A DNA stretch of 43,664 nt. Source: Bdellovibrio sp. (GTDB lineage: Bacteria > Bdellovibrionota > Bdellovibrionia > Bdellovibrionales > Bdellovibrionaceae). The stretch is taken from NCBI GenBank assembly GCA_020720425.1, contig DYOP01000003.1, forward strand, positions 12,231-55,894. Direction: 5' to 3'. Positions 34,177-42,978 of the stretch are shown here, piece after piece; the stretch's first letter is position 1, and every line of letters begins with the position of its first letter. The notes beneath the pieces are model-generated. The model was not told the DNA's origin. It saw only the letters and a program-made list of their open reading frames with translations, and searched no databases. The translations under genes were made by a program, and so were the position numbers.

Positions 34177-35400
34177 ATGAACTTATTTAAATATATATTA
34201 ATTACTTTTACAGCTTTGTTTGCGGTAACAACTCAATCTGATGTAACTCAAAGGTTTTATCTTAAAGTTGAAGCTAAAGACTCTTTTCAAAGAACCCTGA
34301 TTGCCAATACGGGGGCCGCCATTGAAGGGGTGGACTCTGATTATGTTACCGTTATTGCCAATCGCGAAGAGCTGATGCTTATACGAAAACTTAATTTTAA
34401 AACGACCCTCCTTGAAACTCAATACTCTCTATTTAATTTTCCGATTAAAGATGACCCCTATCATAATTACCATGAAGTCTTAAGTAACCTTGAACAAATC
34501 GCCCTTTCTAATCCCCATCTCGTAAGGCTTGAAAGCATCGGAAAAAGCGTTGAAGGATTAGATCTTTGGATGCTTCGAATTACTGAAGATGTCGAGTCAA
34601 ATATAGACACAAGGGCCTCGGCTTTGTTTTTAGGAGGCCACCATGCCCGTGAGCACCTGAGTGTTGAAGTCCCATTACAGCTTGCTAACTGGCTTGTTGA
34701 CCAATATGCCCAAGGCAACTTAAGGGTCAAGCAACTTTTATCTCAAAGAGAAGTCCATATTATACCTATGGTTAACCCCGATGGACTTGAATATGATATT
34801 AAAACTGGAAGTTACCAATTATGGCGCAAAAATCGTGCGCCCAACGCCAACGGAACAGTTGGAGTCGATCTTAACCGCAACTACAGTTACCAATGGGGAA
34901 CAGGCGGGGCCAGTTCAAACCCTTCAAGTGAAACATTCAAAGGCCCCCACCCTTTTAGCGAGCCCGAAACGACTGCGATAAAAAATTATATCGAAAAGCA
35001 TTCGTTAATTAAAATTCTGCTCTCGTTTCACACTTTTTCGGAGTTGATTTTATACCCTTGGGGGCACACGGATCAGCCCATCAATGATAATACCGATTAT
35101 CAAACTCACGTAAAAATGGCACAACATATGGCCAAGTGGAATAAGTATAAAGCTACAAGCGCAAGTGATCTTTATATTGCTAGCGGCGATCTTACGGATT
35201 GGTCTTATGGAACCCATAAAATTATTTCGTTTACCTTTGAACTTGATCCTAAGGCCGGTAACTTTTGGGGCGGAGCCAGTAGTGGCTTTTACCCTGGACC
35301 AAGCCTGATTGATCCAGTTTTTAAAAAAAATCTTGAACCCAGTTTATTTTTAATTGAATACGCTGACAATCCCCAACGTTTTTTATCAGTCCATGAGTAG
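34177..35400 (+). CDS. Exported zinc carboxypeptidase (M14 family)
   Basis: A metallocarboxypeptidase of about 407 residues. The frame opens at 34114, but ATG 34177 with GGGGGG just before it gives a clear signal peptide (NLFKYILITFTALFAVTTQ). Counting from that Met: zinc ligands H156 and E159 in GGHHAREH and H285 in LSFHTFSE, substrate-binding N233-R234 in DLNRNYS, catalytic E355 in TFELDPK. A propeptide-like region of about 90 residues separates the signal from the catalytic domain. In a predator such an enzyme would suit prey-protein digestion (inference). It overlaps the TIGR02147 regulator gene by eight bases. Confidence 0.92.
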   Translation: MNLFKYILITFTALFAVTTQSDVTQRFYLKVEAKDSFQRTLIANTGAAIEGVDSDYVTVIANREELMLIRKLNFKTTLLETQYSLFNFPIKDDPYHNYHEVLSNLEQIALSNPHLVRLESIGKSVEGLDLWMLRITEDVESNIDTRASALFLGGHHAREHLSVEVPLQLANWLVDQYAQGNLRVKQLLSQREVHIIPMVNPDGLEYDIKTGSYQLWRKNRAPNANGTVGVDLNRNYSYQWGTGGASSNPSSETFKGPHPFSEPETTAIKNYIEKHSLIKILLSFHTFSELILYPWGHTDQPINDNTDYQTHVKMAQHMAKWNKYKATSASDLYIASGDLTDWSYGTHKIISFTFELDPKAGNFWGGASSGFYPGPSLIDPVFKKNLEPSLFLIEYADNPQRFLSVHE

Positions 35401-36397
35401 TAACGTATTAGATTTACCTTTACCTATTGTTAGTGAATACCTTGATTACAGACTGTATTTAAGTGATTTTTTTAAATTCAAAAAAGACTCTTTTAAAAAT
35501 CACTTAACTCCCTATACAACAGCCACTTTTGCTGCGGCTAGCGGTATAAAATCTCCGCAATATTTAAAATTAATTATTGAAGGCGAACGAAATTTGTCAG
35601 AAAAATCAATCTCACAATTTTCAAAAGCCTTAGGATTAAAAAAAGAAGAAACCCTTGATTTTAGACTTTTAGTATTAAGCAACCAAGAAACAGATCCCTC
35701 AAAAAGATCGATGTTACTAAAAGAACTGATGGACTACCGAGTGGCTATTAAATTAAAAAATGGCCAGATCTCACCACAAATGTTTGACTCCGTCCCCGAT
35801 TGGGTCGCTTGGGTCTTATACGAAGTAACCCAATTAAAAGATGTTTCATTTGATGTTAAATTTTTACAAAAACTACTACGGTCTAAAGCCTCGGCACATC
35901 AAATTCAAAAATCGCTTAATGCCCTAGTTACCAGCGGGCTTTTAGTCAATACCCCTGATCAATCGGGTTACTCAAAAGGTCGCCTGCTTACAGAGCAATC
36001 GGATCAAATACCCGTTGAGCTTGTCAGACACCTTCAAGCTGAACTTATGTTTTTAGCTTTAGATAGTTTGTATCAAGATAGCCCTTCAGACAGAGAGTTT
36101 GGCTCTGCCACCATGGCCCTGACTCAATCTGAATTTGAAGAAGTGCGTTTTAAACTCAGACAACTTCGAAAGTCTTTACAAAAAGATAATTCTTCAAAAC
36201 GCACTCACGAATTAGGAGAAAGAGTTTATCAACTCAATATGCAACTTTATCCGGTAACTGAAGCTCCGCTAATTAAATCGCAAGAGCAAGGGCAATCGCA
36301 GATACAGATACCCTCTCAAGCTGAAGCACAAACAGAAAGTCAGAGCTGTATTCAACTCCCTCATGATTTAATTCAACAAAATAACAAGCCTCTCTAG
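35393..36397 (+). CDS. TIGR02147-family regulatory protein
   Basis: A protein of about 334 residues from ATG 35393 (frame open from TTG 35354). The N-terminus shows the family signature: DYRLYLSDFFKFKK, then FAAASGIKSPQYLKLIIEGERNLSEKSISQFSKALGLKKEE, resembling an HTH region. TIGR02147 proteins are found mainly in Bdellovibrio, Fibrobacter and related lineages and are thought to be regulators. The C-terminal 45 residues are Gln/Ser-rich and look disordered. It overlaps the M14 peptidase gene (ATGAGTAG) and is probably translationally coupled to it. Confidence 0.85.
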   Translation: MSSNVLDLPLPIVSEYLDYRLYLSDFFKFKKDSFKNHLTPYTTATFAAASGIKSPQYLKLIIEGERNLSEKSISQFSKALGLKKEETLDFRLLVLSNQETDPSKRSMLLKELMDYRVAIKLKNGQISPQMFDSVPDWVAWVLYEVTQLKDVSFDVKFLQKLLRSKASAHQIQKSLNALVTSGLLVNTPDQSGYSKGRLLTEQSDQIPVELVRHLQAELMFLALDSLYQDSPSDREFGSATMALTQSEFEEVRFKLRQLRKSLQKDNSSKRTHELGERVYQLNMQLYPVTEAPLIKSQEQGQSQIQIPSQAEAQTESQSCIQLPHDLIQQNNKPL

Positions 36398-36451
36398 CCA
36401 ATCTCTAAGCTAATTTCTAACCAAAAGAGAGCCAAACAAAGGATATATCTT

Positions 36452-37330
36452 ATGAATTCAACTCCAAAACAAATGGCAAATACAAACCTAAACTCAAAAG
36501 GTCACGGAAAAAACTTTTATAATGATATTGGACTCCGATTAGCTCATAAATTATTAGGCTTAGAGTATCTTCATTACGGTTATTTTGAGAACCTACCTAC
36601 AGCCTTAAGTAATTTACCCCAAGCTCAAGAAAAATATATGGAAGTTGTTCTTGGCCACATTCCAGAAGGTGTTACTACAATATTAGATATTGGCTGCGGC
36701 GCCGGAGGAATGGCCAAAAATATGGTGCTGCGAGGTTATGATCTCACCATTTGTGAGCCTGATCCTTATTTGCTCAACAAAACCCAAGAAATGACTAATC
36801 ACATGGTTAAAGGGGTCATTGGTTTTTATCAAAACACAAATGATTTACCCGAAAATTATTTTGATTTAATTTTAATGTCTGAGTCTTGCCAATATGTCCC
36901 CTTTCAGATGGGCTTTGCTCAACATCGCCGATTCGGAAAAATAGGAGGCTATGTGCTAATATCTGATTTTTTTATTACTAAAAATCTAGATAGCCCCTTT
37001 CTTAGCAAATCAGGGCACCCTTTAGATTTATTTTTAAAACAGGCTCAAGAAAGTGGATTTGAATTAATTAAAAATATTGATATTACACCTCAAACAGCTC
37101 CAACAATGGATATCTATCAATCTTTGATTATCAATAAAGCTTTTCCTATTTTTGAAGCCCTATTTGAATATACACAAAAAAAGTATCCGACTCTCTACAA
37201 ACTTTTATCTTACTTCTTATCAAAAAAAATAAACTTTGTTCGGCAAAAATATTTAACTCAAAGTGCTGAAGTGTTTTCAAAATATAAAAGTTACCGAATT
37301 CTATTATTTAAAATTAATCCCTTAACCTAA
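36452..37330 (+). CDS. SAM-dependent methyltransferase
   Basis: A 292-residue class I methyltransferase. Motif I is clear: VTTILDIGCGAGGMAKNM, then TICEPDP (acidic end of strand 2) and YFDLILMSESCQYV. It resembles UbiE/cyclopropane-synthase-type enzymes acting on small molecules; the substrate is unknown. The C-terminus (residues 215-292) is basic and aromatic-rich. An AAAGGA ribosome site lies before the ATG at 36452. It may be transcribed with the regulator upstream (54-base gap). Confidence 0.8.
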   Translation: MNSTPKQMANTNLNSKGHGKNFYNDIGLRLAHKLLGLEYLHYGYFENLPTALSNLPQAQEKYMEVVLGHIPEGVTTILDIGCGAGGMAKNMVLRGYDLTICEPDPYLLNKTQEMTNHMVKGVIGFYQNTNDLPENYFDLILMSESCQYVPFQMGFAQHRRFGKIGGYVLISDFFITKNLDSPFLSKSGHPLDLFLKQAQESGFELIKNIDITPQTAPTMDIYQSLIINKAFPIFEALFEYTQKKYPTLYKLLSYFLSKKINFVRQKYLTQSAEVFSKYKSYRILLFKINPLT

Positions 37331-37346
37331 AAAGTTTTAACTGAGA

Positions 37347-37376
37347 GAAAACCCAAGAAAACCCAAGAAAACCCAA
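37347..37376. repeat. 10-bp tandem repeat, three perfect copies
   Basis: GAAAACCCAA occurs three times without mismatch, 17 bases after the methyltransferase stop. Confidence 0.85.
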
Positions 37377-37448
37377 GTAATACCAGTTTAAATATAGTTT
37401 TTTTGATGGAAGTTTGTTTTATGACAGTTCGTCAATGATAATTTGTAT

Positions 37449-37612
37449 TAGACTTCTTTCATATTGATTTGTCCTTAAAAGGGGGAAAGGGGGAAAAGAG
37501 GAAAAAGGACACGAAAGAATAGTAGAACTATTTTGAGCGCCCCTTATTTCTTGTGACACAGAGCTGGAGGTAATTACGCCGCTTTAAGCATAAATCAATA
37601 TAAAGAAGTCTA
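37449..37612. mobile_element. Possible MITE-like inverted-repeat element (non-coding)
   Basis: The left arm (37449-37470, TAGACTTCTTTCATATTGAT) and right arm (37592-37612) are inverted copies differing by one base deletion. The similarity extends inward imperfectly to about 31 bases. Between them are about 120 bases with no open gene: a purine tract (about 37479-37510) and a small inverted repeat AATAGT-AGA-ACTATT. TTAGACTT recurs as a direct copy at 37448-37455 and 37617-37624, which might be a remnant of a target duplication. It lies between convergent genes, so a long hairpin terminator is an alternative. The rest of 37331-37706 holds no gene that I see. Confidence 0.45.
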
Positions 37613-37706
37613 CTGTTTAGACTTAAACTAAGCAAGCCTTGATAGAAATCAGTTTGTTCAGGAGTTATTTTTTGAATAGAAATATTTAATAAAAATCTTA
37701 TCGCCT

Positions 37707-38669
37707 TTACCGAAACTCACTCTTTACGGGGTCAGGAGAGGGGGTTTGACTGAGCCAATCCCAAACAACTTCGGGCGAGACCAAATCATCTAAGCGTAAA
37801 AGATCATGACCCGCATTTACAAAATCACGCTTAATTGGATGCGAACTCCACTGTTGAGATTGTGCCTGAATAGGGCCAAAATTATAATCACTTGTTCCGG
37901 CTATATAATAAATGGGTATACGCCTAGTAACAATATCAGAATTGCGAGGGGCGCTGCCCGCATAGGCCGCTACGGCTCGAATTTGCCCTGATAAAAAGTT
38001 TGCCATATAGTTCGAAAATGTAGCGCCTTCAGAAAATCCCATCCAATAAATCTGCTGAGTTTCGATATTGTAATAAGATCCTACCCCATAATAAACACAA
38101 TCAAGCAAGCTTTTGCCTTCGGCCACGGTGGCTGAGGCATTAAAACTCATATTTGAATCGTAATGCATAAAGCTTTTTCTAATCTGATTTGTGTGGGCAG
38201 GGATCATTAAAAGAAACCCTTTTTTATCTGCAAGAGTTTTCCATCCCTCTTGATTGACCACATTGGCAAAATTATTAAAATTATCCCCTAAACCATGCAT
38301 GGCTAACAATAGGGGAGCTGGCTTTTGTGGGTTATATCCTGTTGGCGCATAAATAATATACTCCCGACCATTGCTACATTGGCCAGACCTGTAGCCTAAT
38401 CCGCCTCCCTGGCCCCCTGTAGGCTTAGAATCCAGCGGCGCAGGCGGAGTTACTGGGTCTGTTGGATCAGCCGGATCACTAGGATCAGAGGGATTTGCTG
38501 GCTCCTCAGGAAGAGGGTCTGCTGGCTCGTTGAGAGTCGGCGGAGGCTCAGACAACTGATTATTTAAAGCCTTATCTGAGAGCTGAAAACCAGAGTTTTG
38601 GCACGAAAAGCCCATCAAAGCTGTTATAAAAAATAATAAGATTGAATTTAGACCCACCCGCTTAATCAT
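37707..38669 (-). CDS. Exported esterase lipoprotein (PHB-depolymerase/feruloyl-esterase-like)
   Basis: A 320-residue alpha/beta hydrolase. A signal peptide ends in GFSC, a probable lipobox (Cys23). Residues 40-80 are a Pro/Asp/Ala-rich linker with repeated DPxDP steps. The catalytic domain follows: APLLLAMHGLGDNF (oxyanion), nucleophile Ser in WMGFSEGATFS, Asp in AGTSDYNFG and His in NAGHDLL. It belongs to the LpqC/polyhydroxybutyrate-depolymerase type. It is presumably anchored on the cell surface or in the periplasm; the substrate is not known. Confidence 0.82.
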   Translation of the reverse strand: MIKRVGLNSILLFFITALMGFSCQNSGFQLSDKALNNQLSEPPPTLNEPADPLPEEPANPSDPSDPADPTDPVTPPAPLDSKPTGGQGGGLGYRSGQCSNGREYIIYAPTGYNPQKPAPLLLAMHGLGDNFNNFANVVNQEGWKTLADKKGFLLMIPAHTNQIRKSFMHYDSNMSFNASATVAEGKSLLDCVYYGVGSYYNIETQQIYWMGFSEGATFSNYMANFLSGQIRAVAAYAGSAPRNSDIVTRRIPIYYIAGTSDYNFGPIQAQSQQWSSHPIKRDFVNAGHDLLRLDDLVSPEVVWDWLSQTPSPDPVKSEFR

Positions 38670-38877
38670 GTAATAATTAAAGCAATTTTCTTGCCCCGAG
38701 TTGCCCTTATTTTAGGCAAAAGTTTAACAACATCTATTGCCCAGAATCAATTTAAGGCACTTATAGCCTTTTATTGTGTAAAAATTCAATTTGGAGTTAA
38801 AGGACTGTTTAATTTTTTTAAACATCTGACCAAAGCCTAGTCAGAGTTCTATTAGGAGGGGGGGTATACCTTAAACA

Positions 38878-39019
38878 AACAATAATTTATGGTTTAAATA
38901 AACTATTGTTGGTATATTTTTAGCAAATAAAATTTTGTTTTAATTGGTCAGATTTTTAAAAAAAATAGCTCCCCATTTAGGCCGCCATAATGCAATAAAA
39001 CCCTTTACCATAAAGGGTT
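38878..39019. other. AT-rich non-coding stretch with palindromes
   Basis: This is part of a 577-bp gap (38670-39246) without a convincing gene. It contains GGTATACC (38863-38870) just before it, AACAATA/TATTGTT arms (38878-38884 and 38904-38910), a very AT-rich segment to about 38970, and a 9-bp hairpin with 3-base loop (AACCCTTTA-CCA-TAAAGGGTT, about 38999-39019). The last has no T-run, so it is not an ordinary terminator. Together with the DnaA-box cluster to the right, it could form a replication-related or DnaA-binding locus. Confidence 0.45.
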
Positions 39020-39075
39020 CTGCATAGCCTAAGGGGTAACGACTGGTGAGCAAAATGCAATCACTAAACAAAGAG

Positions 39076-39105
39076 TTATTCACACTTTCCACAGACTTAT
39101 CCACA
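39076..39105 (+). promoter_or_regulatory. DnaA-box cluster
   Basis: TTATTCACA (39076-39084) and TTATCCACA (39097-39105) both fit the E. coli consensus TTATNCACA, with start points 21 bp apart (two helical turns) and in the same orientation. A weaker CTTTCCACA lies between them at 39085-39093; it fits NN(A/T)TCCACA, the Bdellovibrio box as I recall it. About half a site of TTATCCACA would be expected by chance in the entire window. No dnaA, gyrB or parAB gene is near. Confidence 0.6.
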
Positions 39106-39198
39106 TGTCTAAAAACCATAGCTTTAGACAAGAAAGCTCTAAAATTGATTAGGCTTTTGTCAAATTTGTGTTAGCAAGCAAAACGGGCTATCCATTTT

Positions 39199-39264
39199 AA
39201 ATAGCCTCGTTATCAAACAGCCTCGATATTATAAATAGCCTCGATATTAAATAGCCTCGACAGC
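39199..39264. repeat. 16-18 bp tandem repeat, four copies, overlapping a gene end
   Basis: Units begin at 39199, 39215, 39233 and 39249, with the shared core AAATAGCCTCGATATT. The stop codon and last five codons of the lipoprotein gene (39247-39264) lie in the third and fourth units, so repeat expansion or contraction could alter the end of that gene. Confidence 0.8.
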
Positions 39265-39840
39265 TAGACCTTGTTTTTTAAAGATAAGCTCTATATTACC
39301 TTTTTCGATAATCAATCTATCAGAATTGATTCCTTCAACTGATATTTCAGGATCAGTTAAAACTTGAATCATCCATAAGTTCCAATCTTTAAAAGCACAT
39401 CCATTTAAGTCCGCTTGAGTATCTAATGAAACACGGCTAACAATTTCACCCACGTCTTCACTAAAACCTCGAGATAAAAATCCTTTTGAGACTCCGCAGT
39501 TGGCCCTAACTGACATCTGGTAACGATCAGCGCAGCTCCCTGCACACACTAAGTCTTTGCTGTGTTCGATTTCAATAAATGAAATGGCTGTAAAAAATTC
39601 TTTTGGTAACTCAATTTTTTGCCCAAGGCTATTAGCCTCAACCAGTGCCCATTGACTTTCTGGCTTTAATGCCTCGGTAACATTAGATATGCTTTTGGGC
39701 CGATCAGAATTTAAATCACCATTTAATTCATCTCCGCTATTTGGCGTATTTAAATGAGGACTACAGTTTTGAAATGATAGCATTAAAGCCGTAAATCCCA
39801 ATATAAAACTGGTCTGCCTTAAAGCTTTTGATTTAAACAT
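39247..39840 (-). CDS. Lipoprotein of unknown function
   Basis: A 197-residue exported protein. Basic N-terminus (MFKSKALR), hydrophobic core (FILGFTALMLSFQ) and Cys26 in FQNC, a lipobox variant that seems common in Bdellovibrio-type lipoproteins. The mature part has four cysteines in pairs (LVCAGSCADRY, RANCGVS, LNGCAFK) and is otherwise hydrophilic. No domain is recognised. Its end is embedded in a tandem repeat. Confidence 0.7.
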   Translation of the reverse strand: MFKSKALRQTSFILGFTALMLSFQNCSPHLNTPNSGDELNGDLNSDRPKSISNVTEALKPESQWALVEANSLGQKIELPKEFFTAISFIEIEHSKDLVCAGSCADRYQMSVRANCGVSKGFLSRGFSEDVGEIVSRVSLDTQADLNGCAFKDWNLWMIQVLTDPEISVEGINSDRLIIEKGNIELIFKKQGLAVEAI

Positions 39841-40224
39841 ACCCCACCTCCCTAGCTATAAAGAAAGCAAATATAAGACCGAATCACTGTTTTAAAGTAA
39901 AACAATCTAACCCACTAGATTTATCGGCACAGCTTTAAATTACTTAAGCTCTGTCTAACTTTGCAAAAACAGCTATAACTTTTACAGTTACCTATCGCCA
40001 CTCATGGGGCTTTGGTGTTAATCAACTCGGCCCAATAGGATTAAGAGCCATTCAAAAATTAAAAAATAATTTTATATCAATTAAATTAGTTAAAAAATCA
40101 TCATGAGCCTCAAAAACTGTATAACTTTTAAACAATTATGACAGCCTAACCCTGAAATAATTATTTTAAATTAGCCCAACTTAGCCCTGCTCTATTAATT
40201 TTTAACCAAACCTGATACCTTTAC
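39841..40224. other. Non-coding gap without recognised gene
   Basis: The divergent gap between the lipoprotein and the secreted-protein gene runs to 40300. It is AT-rich, contains the 12-bp palindrome AAATAATTATTT (40155-40166) and one GTTACC (about 39984). No RNA gene or open frame of note was seen; the right end is the repeat at 40225. Confidence 0.4.
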
Positions 40225-40272
40225 ACCGGTCCTGGTCGAAACCAATCCTGGTCGAAACCGGTCCTGGTCGCA
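40225..40272. repeat. 16-bp direct repeat, three copies, upstream of the secreted-protein gene
   Basis: ACCGGTCCTGGTCGAA at 40225, then a copy with two changes at 40241 and one with one change at 40257. The array ends 28 bases before the ATG at 40301, so it covers the promoter or leader and is a candidate multi-site operator. Confidence 0.8.
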
Positions 40273-40300
40273 ATGGTTAATTATAGATGGAGACAAACAT

Positions 40301-41530
40301 ATGAAACAAATATCACGCCGGCTAGTAACACTTATTTTATTTTCATTTACTTCCTCAATGGCTTTAGCTGATGTTTGGCAAGCAACAAACACCTGGGACC
40401 ACTCATGGGAAAACAAATACTCAACCTGGATCAAAACTGACTTTAACGAAGACTTTTTTTTAAAAGGCCCCTGGGGCGGAATCCCAACCGATTGCGCTGA
40501 CGCCCTTTACGGAGCCCGAGTTATTTTTGCTTATCAAAATCAGCTGCCCGTATATTTTTCTTCCGTTGGAGCCTCTCAAGAAACTTCTAAATTTGACTCA
40601 ATTATTAACCCCGATCAACGCGTAAAAAGTTTTATCCTTTATCTCATAAAAAATGTCGGCACTAAGACTTTGCCCAAAGATACTTATCCTGTGGCGATTA
40701 ATCGTACTATGATTACCTCTGGCACTTTATGGAGCCGAGTTACCAGTACTAACTCAAATGGGCAAACCTCAGGACACTCGGAGGTGATAAAAGAAGTCAA
40801 CCCCGCAGGAGTTGTGTTTTTAATTGGCTCAACCGTGCCTGCAAAAGTTCGCGGCCTTTTGGTTGGAACAAGTTTAATGGTTCCTCCAAGCCTTGATGAC
40901 GAAACAGGCTTTAGACGCTGGGTTTGGCCTCAAAACGTGGGTAACAAATCTCAATCCGAAGGATATAGTCTTGAGCAGTATGACCTTCTTAACCAAAACG
41001 ATCATGCTGAAATGGCTGTGGATATGGATATGCAAGATCTTGCAAGCGGGGCCCTCACGACAACCCCATTTGATAAAGCAGTTCAAGAAAAGCTCGCAAC
41101 AAGGGGTGAATCAAATGATGAGTTTATTGAAAGAGCTACCACAGAACTTTGTTCACTACTTAAGCAACGAGAAGAGGTGATTGATGATGCCTTAAAATAT
41201 CAAGCAAAAATATTTAACGCCTGCATGGGGCCTAATGATTACGATACTTATTCAACACCCTCACGAGATTCAAGAGTTAAAAAAGTACTTGAAGAAACAA
41301 TTGATTCATTTTTTTCAATGCCCTCTTGGGCTTCAGAAGAAAGTAAAAAAGCCAAGCTTGATAAGCACATGGCTTTTTGTGCGCCCATTAGACTTCATGA
41401 CTTAACCCAAGTATCAGCCTCTAAAGTATTAATGATGCTCTACAAAGACAAATGGTCTTCTGACCCAAATGATAATGAAAAGGCTCGATGGGGATTAGAT
41501 TTACCTCAGTCAAGATGCAATAGTTACTAA
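40301..41530 (+). CDS. Secreted protein of unknown function, possible cysteine peptidase
   Basis: A 409-residue protein with a signal peptide (about 1-23, cut after ALA). In the mature part, GGIPTDCADALYGARVIFAY (Cys65) is followed about 95 residues later by TSGHSEVIKEVNPAGVVFLI (His159), a Cys-then-His spacing and local sequence reminiscent of NlpC/P60 or other papain-fold enzymes. The C-terminal 150 residues are helical and charged, with a few cysteines. I cannot name the family, and the enzymatic call is inference. GGAG precedes the ATG; the 16-bp repeat array lies directly upstream. Confidence 0.6.
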   Translation: MKQISRRLVTLILFSFTSSMALADVWQATNTWDHSWENKYSTWIKTDFNEDFFLKGPWGGIPTDCADALYGARVIFAYQNQLPVYFSSVGASQETSKFDSIINPDQRVKSFILYLIKNVGTKTLPKDTYPVAINRTMITSGTLWSRVTSTNSNGQTSGHSEVIKEVNPAGVVFLIGSTVPAKVRGLLVGTSLMVPPSLDDETGFRRWVWPQNVGNKSQSEGYSLEQYDLLNQNDHAEMAVDMDMQDLASGALTTTPFDKAVQEKLATRGESNDEFIERATTELCSLLKQREEVIDDALKYQAKIFNACMGPNDYDTYSTPSRDSRVKKVLEETIDSFFSMPSWASEESKKAKLDKHMAFCAPIRLHDLTQVSASKVLMMLYKDKWSSDPNDNEKARWGLDLPQSRCNSY

Positions 41531-42690: not shown

Positions 42691-42978
42691 TTACTCCTTA
42701 CAAACGTTTTCAAAATCATGTTTTTCTTTTTTAGTGGCTTTGCGAGCACTGAGAATTCGAATTGTGCTCTCGTCTTCTTTGTAAACGTGGATAACAAACA
42801 GTAGATTATTCTTTTGACTATGTCCGATCAAAATGAATCGATCTTCTTGATAGGAATGATCAGGATCATGTCCCAATTTAGCATACGGATCATAGAAAAC
42901 AGTCGAAGCCTCTTCGAATGAGATTCCATGTTTATCAAGATTTATCTTAGCTTTTTTGGAGTCCCATTTAAAATCCAT
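42691..42978 (-). CDS. brnT: BrnT-like toxin (RelE-fold ribonuclease)
   Basis: A 95-residue toxin: FKWDSKKAKINLDKHGISFE, EASTVFYDP, DHSYQEDRFILIGHS and RILSARKATKKEKH match BrnT (conserved Arg/Lys in the C-terminal helix region). It is thought to cut mRNA and stop growth. It lies first in the operon, as in other BrnTA systems. No Shine-Dalgarno sequence precedes ATG 42978, and a promoter sits so close that the message may be leaderless. Confidence 0.92.
   Translation of the reverse strand: MDFKWDSKKAKINLDKHGISFEEASTVFYDPYAKLGHDPDHSYQEDRFILIGHSQKNNLLFVIHVYKEDESTIRILSARKATKKEKHDFENVCKE

Follow-up and report, generated by a model that had tools for sequence, protein, structure and literature searches.

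A conserved double DnaA box outside the replication origin of Bdellovibrio and its relatives: a candidate locus of DnaA control

The locus and its features

The DNA analysed here is a stretch of 43,664 nucleotides, referred to as the window, from a Bdellovibrio sp. (GenBank assembly GCA_020720425.1, contig DYOP01000003.1, positions 12,231 to 55,894); the source genome (G000) amounts to 2.6 Mb in 203 contigs and is 99% complete. Between an esterase-like gene and a gene for a 197-residue protein, an AT-rich stretch and a short hairpin are followed by three DnaA boxes, all of them on one strand (Table 1). A previous sequence-only reading had described an AT-rich segment with inverted repeats and a 9-bp hairpin, and composition and repeat scans found all of these to be present: the 100 bp at 38871 contain 17% GC, the second lowest value of 4357 stepped windows, as compared with 37.6% for the window as a whole, and the inverted repeats at 38810-38833 and 38944-38967 extend over 24 nt at 92%. 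The two exact boxes and the weaker third between them, also noted in that reading, were likewise borne out, with exact TTATNCACA sites at 39076-39084 and 39097-39105, both on the plus strand and 21 bp apart from start to start. Boxes 2 and 3 form a "double DnaA box" with a 3-bp gap within 39076-39105 (+), and box 2 fits the consensus NN(A/T)TCCACA that BdDnaA recognises (PMC5124646). A consensus scan of the window found no sigma-70-like promoter overlapping the boxes.

Table 1. Coordinates of the box cluster and neighbouring features in the window
Feature	Position	Strand	Remarks
TIGR02147/DUF4423 gene	35354..36397	+	weak HTH_3 match below cut-off; family counterpart usually adjoins the element
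PHB-depolymerase-like esterase, flanking gene	37707..38669	-	under the curated cut-off in each of two NCBIfam models
AT-rich stretch with inverted repeats	38740..39000	.	29% GC
Perfect 9-bp hairpin AACCCTTTA/TAAAGGGTT	38999..39019	.	3-nt loop
Complete conserved element	39073..39106	+	single profile R1 match within the window, 30.8 bits (window sequence part of the profile)
DnaA box 1, TTATTCACA	39076..39084	+	exact consensus; degenerate in most aligned relatives
DnaA box 2, CTTTCCACA	39085..39093	+	differs from TTATCCACA at 2 positions; opens the conserved double box
DnaA box 3, TTATCCACA	39097..39105	+	separated from box 2 by 3 bp; completes the double box
197-aa flanking gene	39247..39840	-	no family match

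It is the tandem same-strand arrangement, not the individual boxes, that is unusual. Three exact single boxes were observed in the window against 1.73 expected, at least three occurred in 27 of 100 shuffles, and boxes with one mismatch permitted were fewer than expected (35 versus 46.6). A same-strand pair within 30 bp appeared in none of 400 first-order Markov simulations of the window, and the 30-mer of the cluster, itself derived from the window, had no match at up to three mismatches in 100 shuffles. Throughout the source genome, the exact pair pattern occurs at four places, versus one for the reversed control pattern; two of the four overlap within oriC, one is that of the window, and one lies within a coding gene on contig 123. 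This last pair (G000 46059-46079, 12 bp apart) was set aside for its position inside the gene, which from its look we take to be alpha/beta-hydrolase-like.

The flanking genes were rejected as anchors for the locus, with weak matches to the esterase in 12 of 58 relatives and a similarly weak one to the 197-aa gene in 1 of 58. A search for RNA elements gave no credible Rfam match in 36000-40500, the one match found being far under its gathering score. The 3' terminus of the 197-aa gene carries repeats with ATAGCCTCG at 39181-39264, three 34-nt copies that are 62-100% alike, and these overlap a minus-strand hairpin resembling a terminator (39186-39206). Further along, the window holds a BrnT-type ribonuclease toxin gene at 42691-42978 (Pfam PF04365, E 6e-28).

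Conservation among relatives

When the full intergenic region was used as a query against 58 relatives, three short matches were obtained. The best of these, in G005 (41 bp, 85%, E 8e-6), coincides exactly with the box cluster; the others were found in G037 (39138-39169, E 3.2e-4) and in G015, where 41 bp of the AT-rich stretch were matched (38951-38991, E 2.8e-4; 1 of the 58 relatives). The hairpin had no match in the 58 relatives, and neither it nor the AT-rich stretch appears convincingly conserved. A loose pattern for the cluster was present in 23 of 59 genomes, own included, and its reversed form in none; many of its 27 matches fell within reading frames and were not used, and several others adjoined a TIGR02147/DUF4423 gene. 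The core TCCACAGASTTATCCACA, with at most one mismatch, was found in 62 of 99 genomes and the reversed control in 0 of 99. Every one of 19 genus-g7 genomes possessed an exact copy of the core, and 12 of the 19 showed no other match.

A profile, R1, was built from 43 distinct elements, which had been picked with a pattern demanding most of the box letters, so that the profile and its column counts lean on that pattern. At E<=1e-5 and among the matches listed, R1 matched 57 of 66 family genomes (the source genome among them), counted by score rather than by individually confirmed place, as well as 5 of 74 genomes from elsewhere in the order, one of the five inside gyrB. The source genome gave one match among those listed (G000:C94:51303-51336, E 6.2e-7), and genomes outside the training set were also matched (G007, G029, G064, G078 and G099-G103). 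Weak matches mean little because, among the matches listed, some match at E<=0.05 was found in 130 of 140 genomes. The nine family genomes missed at E<=1e-5 include two with partial copies (G015, G017), two with contigs ending beside the TIGR02147 gene (G020, G035) and one that is 64% complete (G076); the misses in G013 (81% complete), G016, G022 and G028 (67% complete) have no clear reason.

In the aligned elements the double box keeps one direction, and its last box reads TTWTCCACA in 43 of 43, letters that the search pattern demanded. The three positions after TCCAC, on which the pattern set no demand, are conserved as well, with A, G and A in 39, 35 and 35 of the 43 elements. As judged on these 43 aligned elements, the sequence-only reading requires one correction: the conserved part is its "weaker" middle box together with the third box, and the exact first box is mostly degenerate. 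Its proposed check on whether the boxes are conserved in close relatives was answered in the affirmative by the intergenic, core, locus and profile searches.

Matches within gyrB (L311, L325, L340) lie in coding sequence and were not counted as the element. Where the core falls inside gyrB and near dnaN, as in some genomes, it may reflect chance in the coding sequence or mark an additional DnaA site on the origin side. The motif CTAGAC lies within 100 bp of the boxes in 12 of 43 elements (12 occurrences versus 0.96 expected from the surrounding DNA), and it was rejected as a general companion motif, being present in some lineages only.

In Bdellovibrio the boxes are accompanied by a palindrome. 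Across 14 Bdellovibrio loci the box block AAAaggtc.aGaTATCCACcaTTTAt.gG..T.tTCCACAGA.TTATCCACA is conserved (0.87-0.90 in the footprint), and past a less conserved stretch lies the palindrome block at 0.93, with adjoining blocks at 0.51-0.67; further conserved blocks occur near the ssrA end and the TIGR02147 gene end of the footprint. The palindrome, TTTAAGAWTCTTAAA, was counted 59 times in 346 sequences (2.13 Mb, many overlapping), always 51-55 nt from the core and nowhere else in these sequences, which had been chosen around such loci. After de-duplication it covers 22 of 24 genus-g7 genomes together with G012, the scan having been confined to sequences from genomes other than G101, and G073 carries it with one changed letter. 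In G078 palindrome and boxes have remained together. The window copy is without TTTAAGAWTCTTAAA, and none was found near oriC in the six dnaA loci examined. At such a fixed distance from the boxes, the palindrome is probably bound by a second protein.

Gene neighbourhood

Of 98 relatives searched, 80 contributed a locus: 54 of the 60 from the family and 26 of the 38 from outside it. Left out from the family were G013, G015, G016, G022, G028 and G076, in which TIGR02147 matches are weak or partial. A frequent arrangement in the family begins with an upstream gene, drawn from two groups that resemble each other, and continues with the TIGR02147 gene, the element, ssrA and lastly variable genes. 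In 47 of the 54 family loci, 57-519 bp separate the end of the TIGR02147 match from the element beyond it, which is invariably in the opposite orientation, with its boxes pointing back at the gene. The other seven comprise three in which the contig ends (L085, L087, L111), one with the core only (G017) and three with the element elsewhere (G078, G064, G007). The window is arranged differently, its TIGR02147 gene being 2.8 kb from the element and the element flipped. Outside the family, two of 26 loci (f2) have the cluster on the other, upstream side of the TIGR02147 gene, and 24 have none near it, a distant weak match in L158 being uncounted. One Bdellovibrio locus, L208, has a TIGR02147 gene whose 4-kb flanks contain no element and no palindrome.

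The distance to ssrA is 73-377 bp in 37 of the 43 family loci with both in hand and 978-3056 bp in the other six (L084/G005, L086/G060, L122/G059, L125/G002, L128/G021 and L134/G011); four further element-bearing family loci show no tmRNA. G007 has its element some 8.5 kb away from ssrA and from the TIGR02147 gene alike. In G078, G064 and G100 the element, and in G015 a partial copy, adjoins ssrA in a retrieved sequence that gave no TIGR02147 match. The element can therefore part from either gene. No tmRNA above the Rfam cut-off was found in the source genome, for all its 99% completeness, and one was present in 17 of 23 genomes searched; the tmRNA of the source genome may have been lost, have diverged or be missing from the assembly. 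Past the TIGR02147 gene, the gene content differs from genome to genome and in L088, L119 and L136 includes a serine recombinase-like gene, as judged by first residues, which suggests an integration hot spot near ssrA.

The neighbours of double boxes were surveyed at 34 loci, 29 of them outside the family, a score-based selection and not a random one. Among the matches listed, the 29 comprise 12 at rho, 10 at sdhB, 2 at etfB, 2 inside gyrB and 3 at none of these (rho, sdhB and etfB names confirmed on examples), and these fractions are not rates because the matches were picked by score and several are weak. Double boxes after rho are always opposed to it (12 loci), those after sdhB run in its direction in 9 of 10, and those near etfB (2 loci) lie upstream of it. 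The repeated association with rho and sdhB is informative despite the selection. From family to family the DnaA site is found among different genes, and no single gene stands out as a common target.

Position relative to dnaA and the origin

The cluster was correctly placed away from dnaA by the sequence-only reading: dnaA is on contig 107 and the window on contig 94. The reading of the cluster as an origin is unsupported, dnaA being on another contig and having four exact boxes up to dnaN, one overlapping the dnaA end and three before dnaN (itself called by position and by similarity to the dnaN adjoining dnaA in other genomes). In B. bacteriovorus, oriC has been mapped between dnaA and dnaN (PMC5124646), and the window cluster lies outside that interval. 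A second or vestigial origin would account for boxes that adjoin an AT-rich stretch, but it is very improbable given that oriC-like boxes sit by dnaA elsewhere, that the AT-rich stretch is not convincingly conserved, and that tens to hundreds of kilobases separate the element from dnaA in relatives.

The element and dnaA share a contig in 31 of 38 genomes at 25-426 kb, so that in these relatives the element lies near the origin, as a DnaA-box cluster would; one-contig distances in drafts favour short ones. The remaining seven comprise six family genomes whose dnaA and element are on separate contigs, and G045, for which no location of the element was obtained. Among the 24 family genomes with a shared contig, 23 show a distance of 165-289 kb (201 kb in G036) and G065 one of 426 kb; the seven non-family genomes have values of 25-133 kb, from weak matches of 20-25 bits (the second-best match in G046). 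Seven of the family distances, those for G006, G036, G061, G069, G077, G079 and G080, were counted across contig ends with the contig taken as circular. The element of G002 and G031 is on the other chromosome arm. Positions within the family share synteny and are not independent, and synteny alone could keep the family distance constant. The datA and DARS loci of E. coli also keep their relative distance from oriC (PMC4585315). G031 additionally has a second dnaA-like match (G031:C1:2347107-2348063) with 32% identity and one internal stop.

A candidate locus of DnaA control

The cluster is probably a DNA replication control point and not a chance match, because nearly the same site recurs in many Bdellovibrio relatives. 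As to its kind, we lean, on the pattern of conservation, towards an extra-origin chromosomal DnaA-control or titration locus of Bdellovibrionales that resembles datA or the B. subtilis DnaA-box clusters (DBCs). Several boxes lie outside oriC above chance, they are conserved in relatives beyond their surroundings, and the conserved core is a box pair with the spacing favoured by E. coli DnaA, which prefers pairs 2-3 bp apart, DARS2 included (PMC11317965). Boxes 2 and 3, the double box with its 3-bp gap, would be bound by DnaA cooperatively, and the weaker upstream half-box would assist. A site on the origin side would be duplicated fairly soon after initiation and, because it is copied early, would draw DnaA away by soaking it up or inactivating it, presumably delaying re-initiation, an effect also put forward for datA and the DBCs. 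Early-copied sites that draw DnaA from new origins have been suggested for the B. subtilis clusters in a paper that elsewhere doubts their importance (PMC5295017), and titration of DnaA by chromosomal sites has been suggested for E. coli (PMC12371093). Of the guesses made in the sequence-only reading, a datA-like titration site fits best, and the five-box layout of datA does not carry over. The window copy counts against an extra-origin control locus, being displaced, flipped and without the palindrome, with fewer boxes than datA, as do the nine family genomes missed by R1 and locus L208.

In B. bacteriovorus an attack phase without replication alternates with filamentous growth in which replication repeats. 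It is tempting, if speculative, to envisage a composite locus of predators at which DnaA on the double box and a second protein on TTTAAGAWTCTTAAA would set the timing and frequency of replication re-starts in the prey-grown filament; we consider this possible but doubtful.

The main rival to a DnaA-control or titration locus is a role at the ssrA (tmRNA) promoter, in which upstream DnaA would couple ribosome rescue to the cell cycle. Its closeness to ssrA in most family loci gives this explanation substance, and it gains weight because the element stays by ssrA in several genomes without a TIGR02147 gene nearby; moreover, deletion of ssrA in Caulobacter delays dnaA transcription and replication (PMC8119881). 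It must nevertheless contend with gaps of about one to three kilobases in six of the 43 loci and of 8.5 kb in G007, with a source genome that keeps the element in the lack of a tmRNA above cut-off, and with double boxes that follow rho or sdhB in other families, and we judge it unlikely. The broader suggestion of a DnaA-regulated promoter, made from the sequence alone, is weakened, since neighbours vary between families and genes are inserted on either side, and it retains the position beside ssrA in most family loci.

Less probable again is local regulation of the TIGR02147/DUF4423 gene, or a site bound by its protein. Adjacency in 47 of 54 family loci and the upstream position in both f2 loci would suit such a role, but in the family the element is past the 3' end of the gene, it is kilobases away in G078, G064, G007 and the window, and 24 of 26 non-family loci have the gene without a nearby element. 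Equally improbable is a conserved site for a protein other than DnaA, resembling DnaA boxes by accident. The fixed spacing of the palindrome in Bdellovibrio does suggest that another protein acts here; against an accidental likeness stand the uniform last box of all 43 elements, albeit in letters demanded by the search pattern, and a 3-bp spacing that matches the preference of E. coli DnaA (PMC11317965).

No title or abstract start on such a site was found in the open-access literature, covered together with a Bdellovibrio replication paper and a review searched by term. The conserved site of about 50-90 bp, with its exact address, provides a direct experimental handle and, if working, would extend control of the datA/DBC type to another phylum.

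Comparison with known systems

The cluster is like the DBCs of B. subtilis, which are short DnaA-box clusters outside the origin and are reportedly called oriC-proximal in the paper describing them. Six such clusters occur in B. subtilis, and a strong effect was seen only on removal of the complete set (PMC5295017), whereas 12 of 19 genus-g7 genomes have a single core match and Bdellovibrio adds the companion palindrome. Like E. coli datA, the locus is non-coding, combines DnaA boxes with a site for a second protein (putative here), and lies beside an RNA gene, which is a tRNA-Gly operon at datA and ssrA in most family loci (PMC10950094). Five boxes and an IHF site make up datA (PMC4585315), as compared with three boxes in the window and a palindrome in Bdellovibrio. 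Both datA and DARS can be deleted in E. coli without loss of viability (PMC4585315).

A three-box core is shared with E. coli DARS1 and DARS2, the latter having a double box with a 3-bp gap (PMC11317965). DARS boxes I and II are opposed (PMC8682772), and a DARS mechanism is less likely because the boxes of the window cluster all run in the same direction, as does the double box in the aligned elements. Finally, two boxes 3 bp apart are also found in the double DnaA boxes of E. coli purH and polA, with one imperfect (7 of 9) and one perfect box in the purH pair; those sites lie upstream of particular genes (PMC11317965), whereas the neighbours of the element in Bdellovibrio relatives differ between families.
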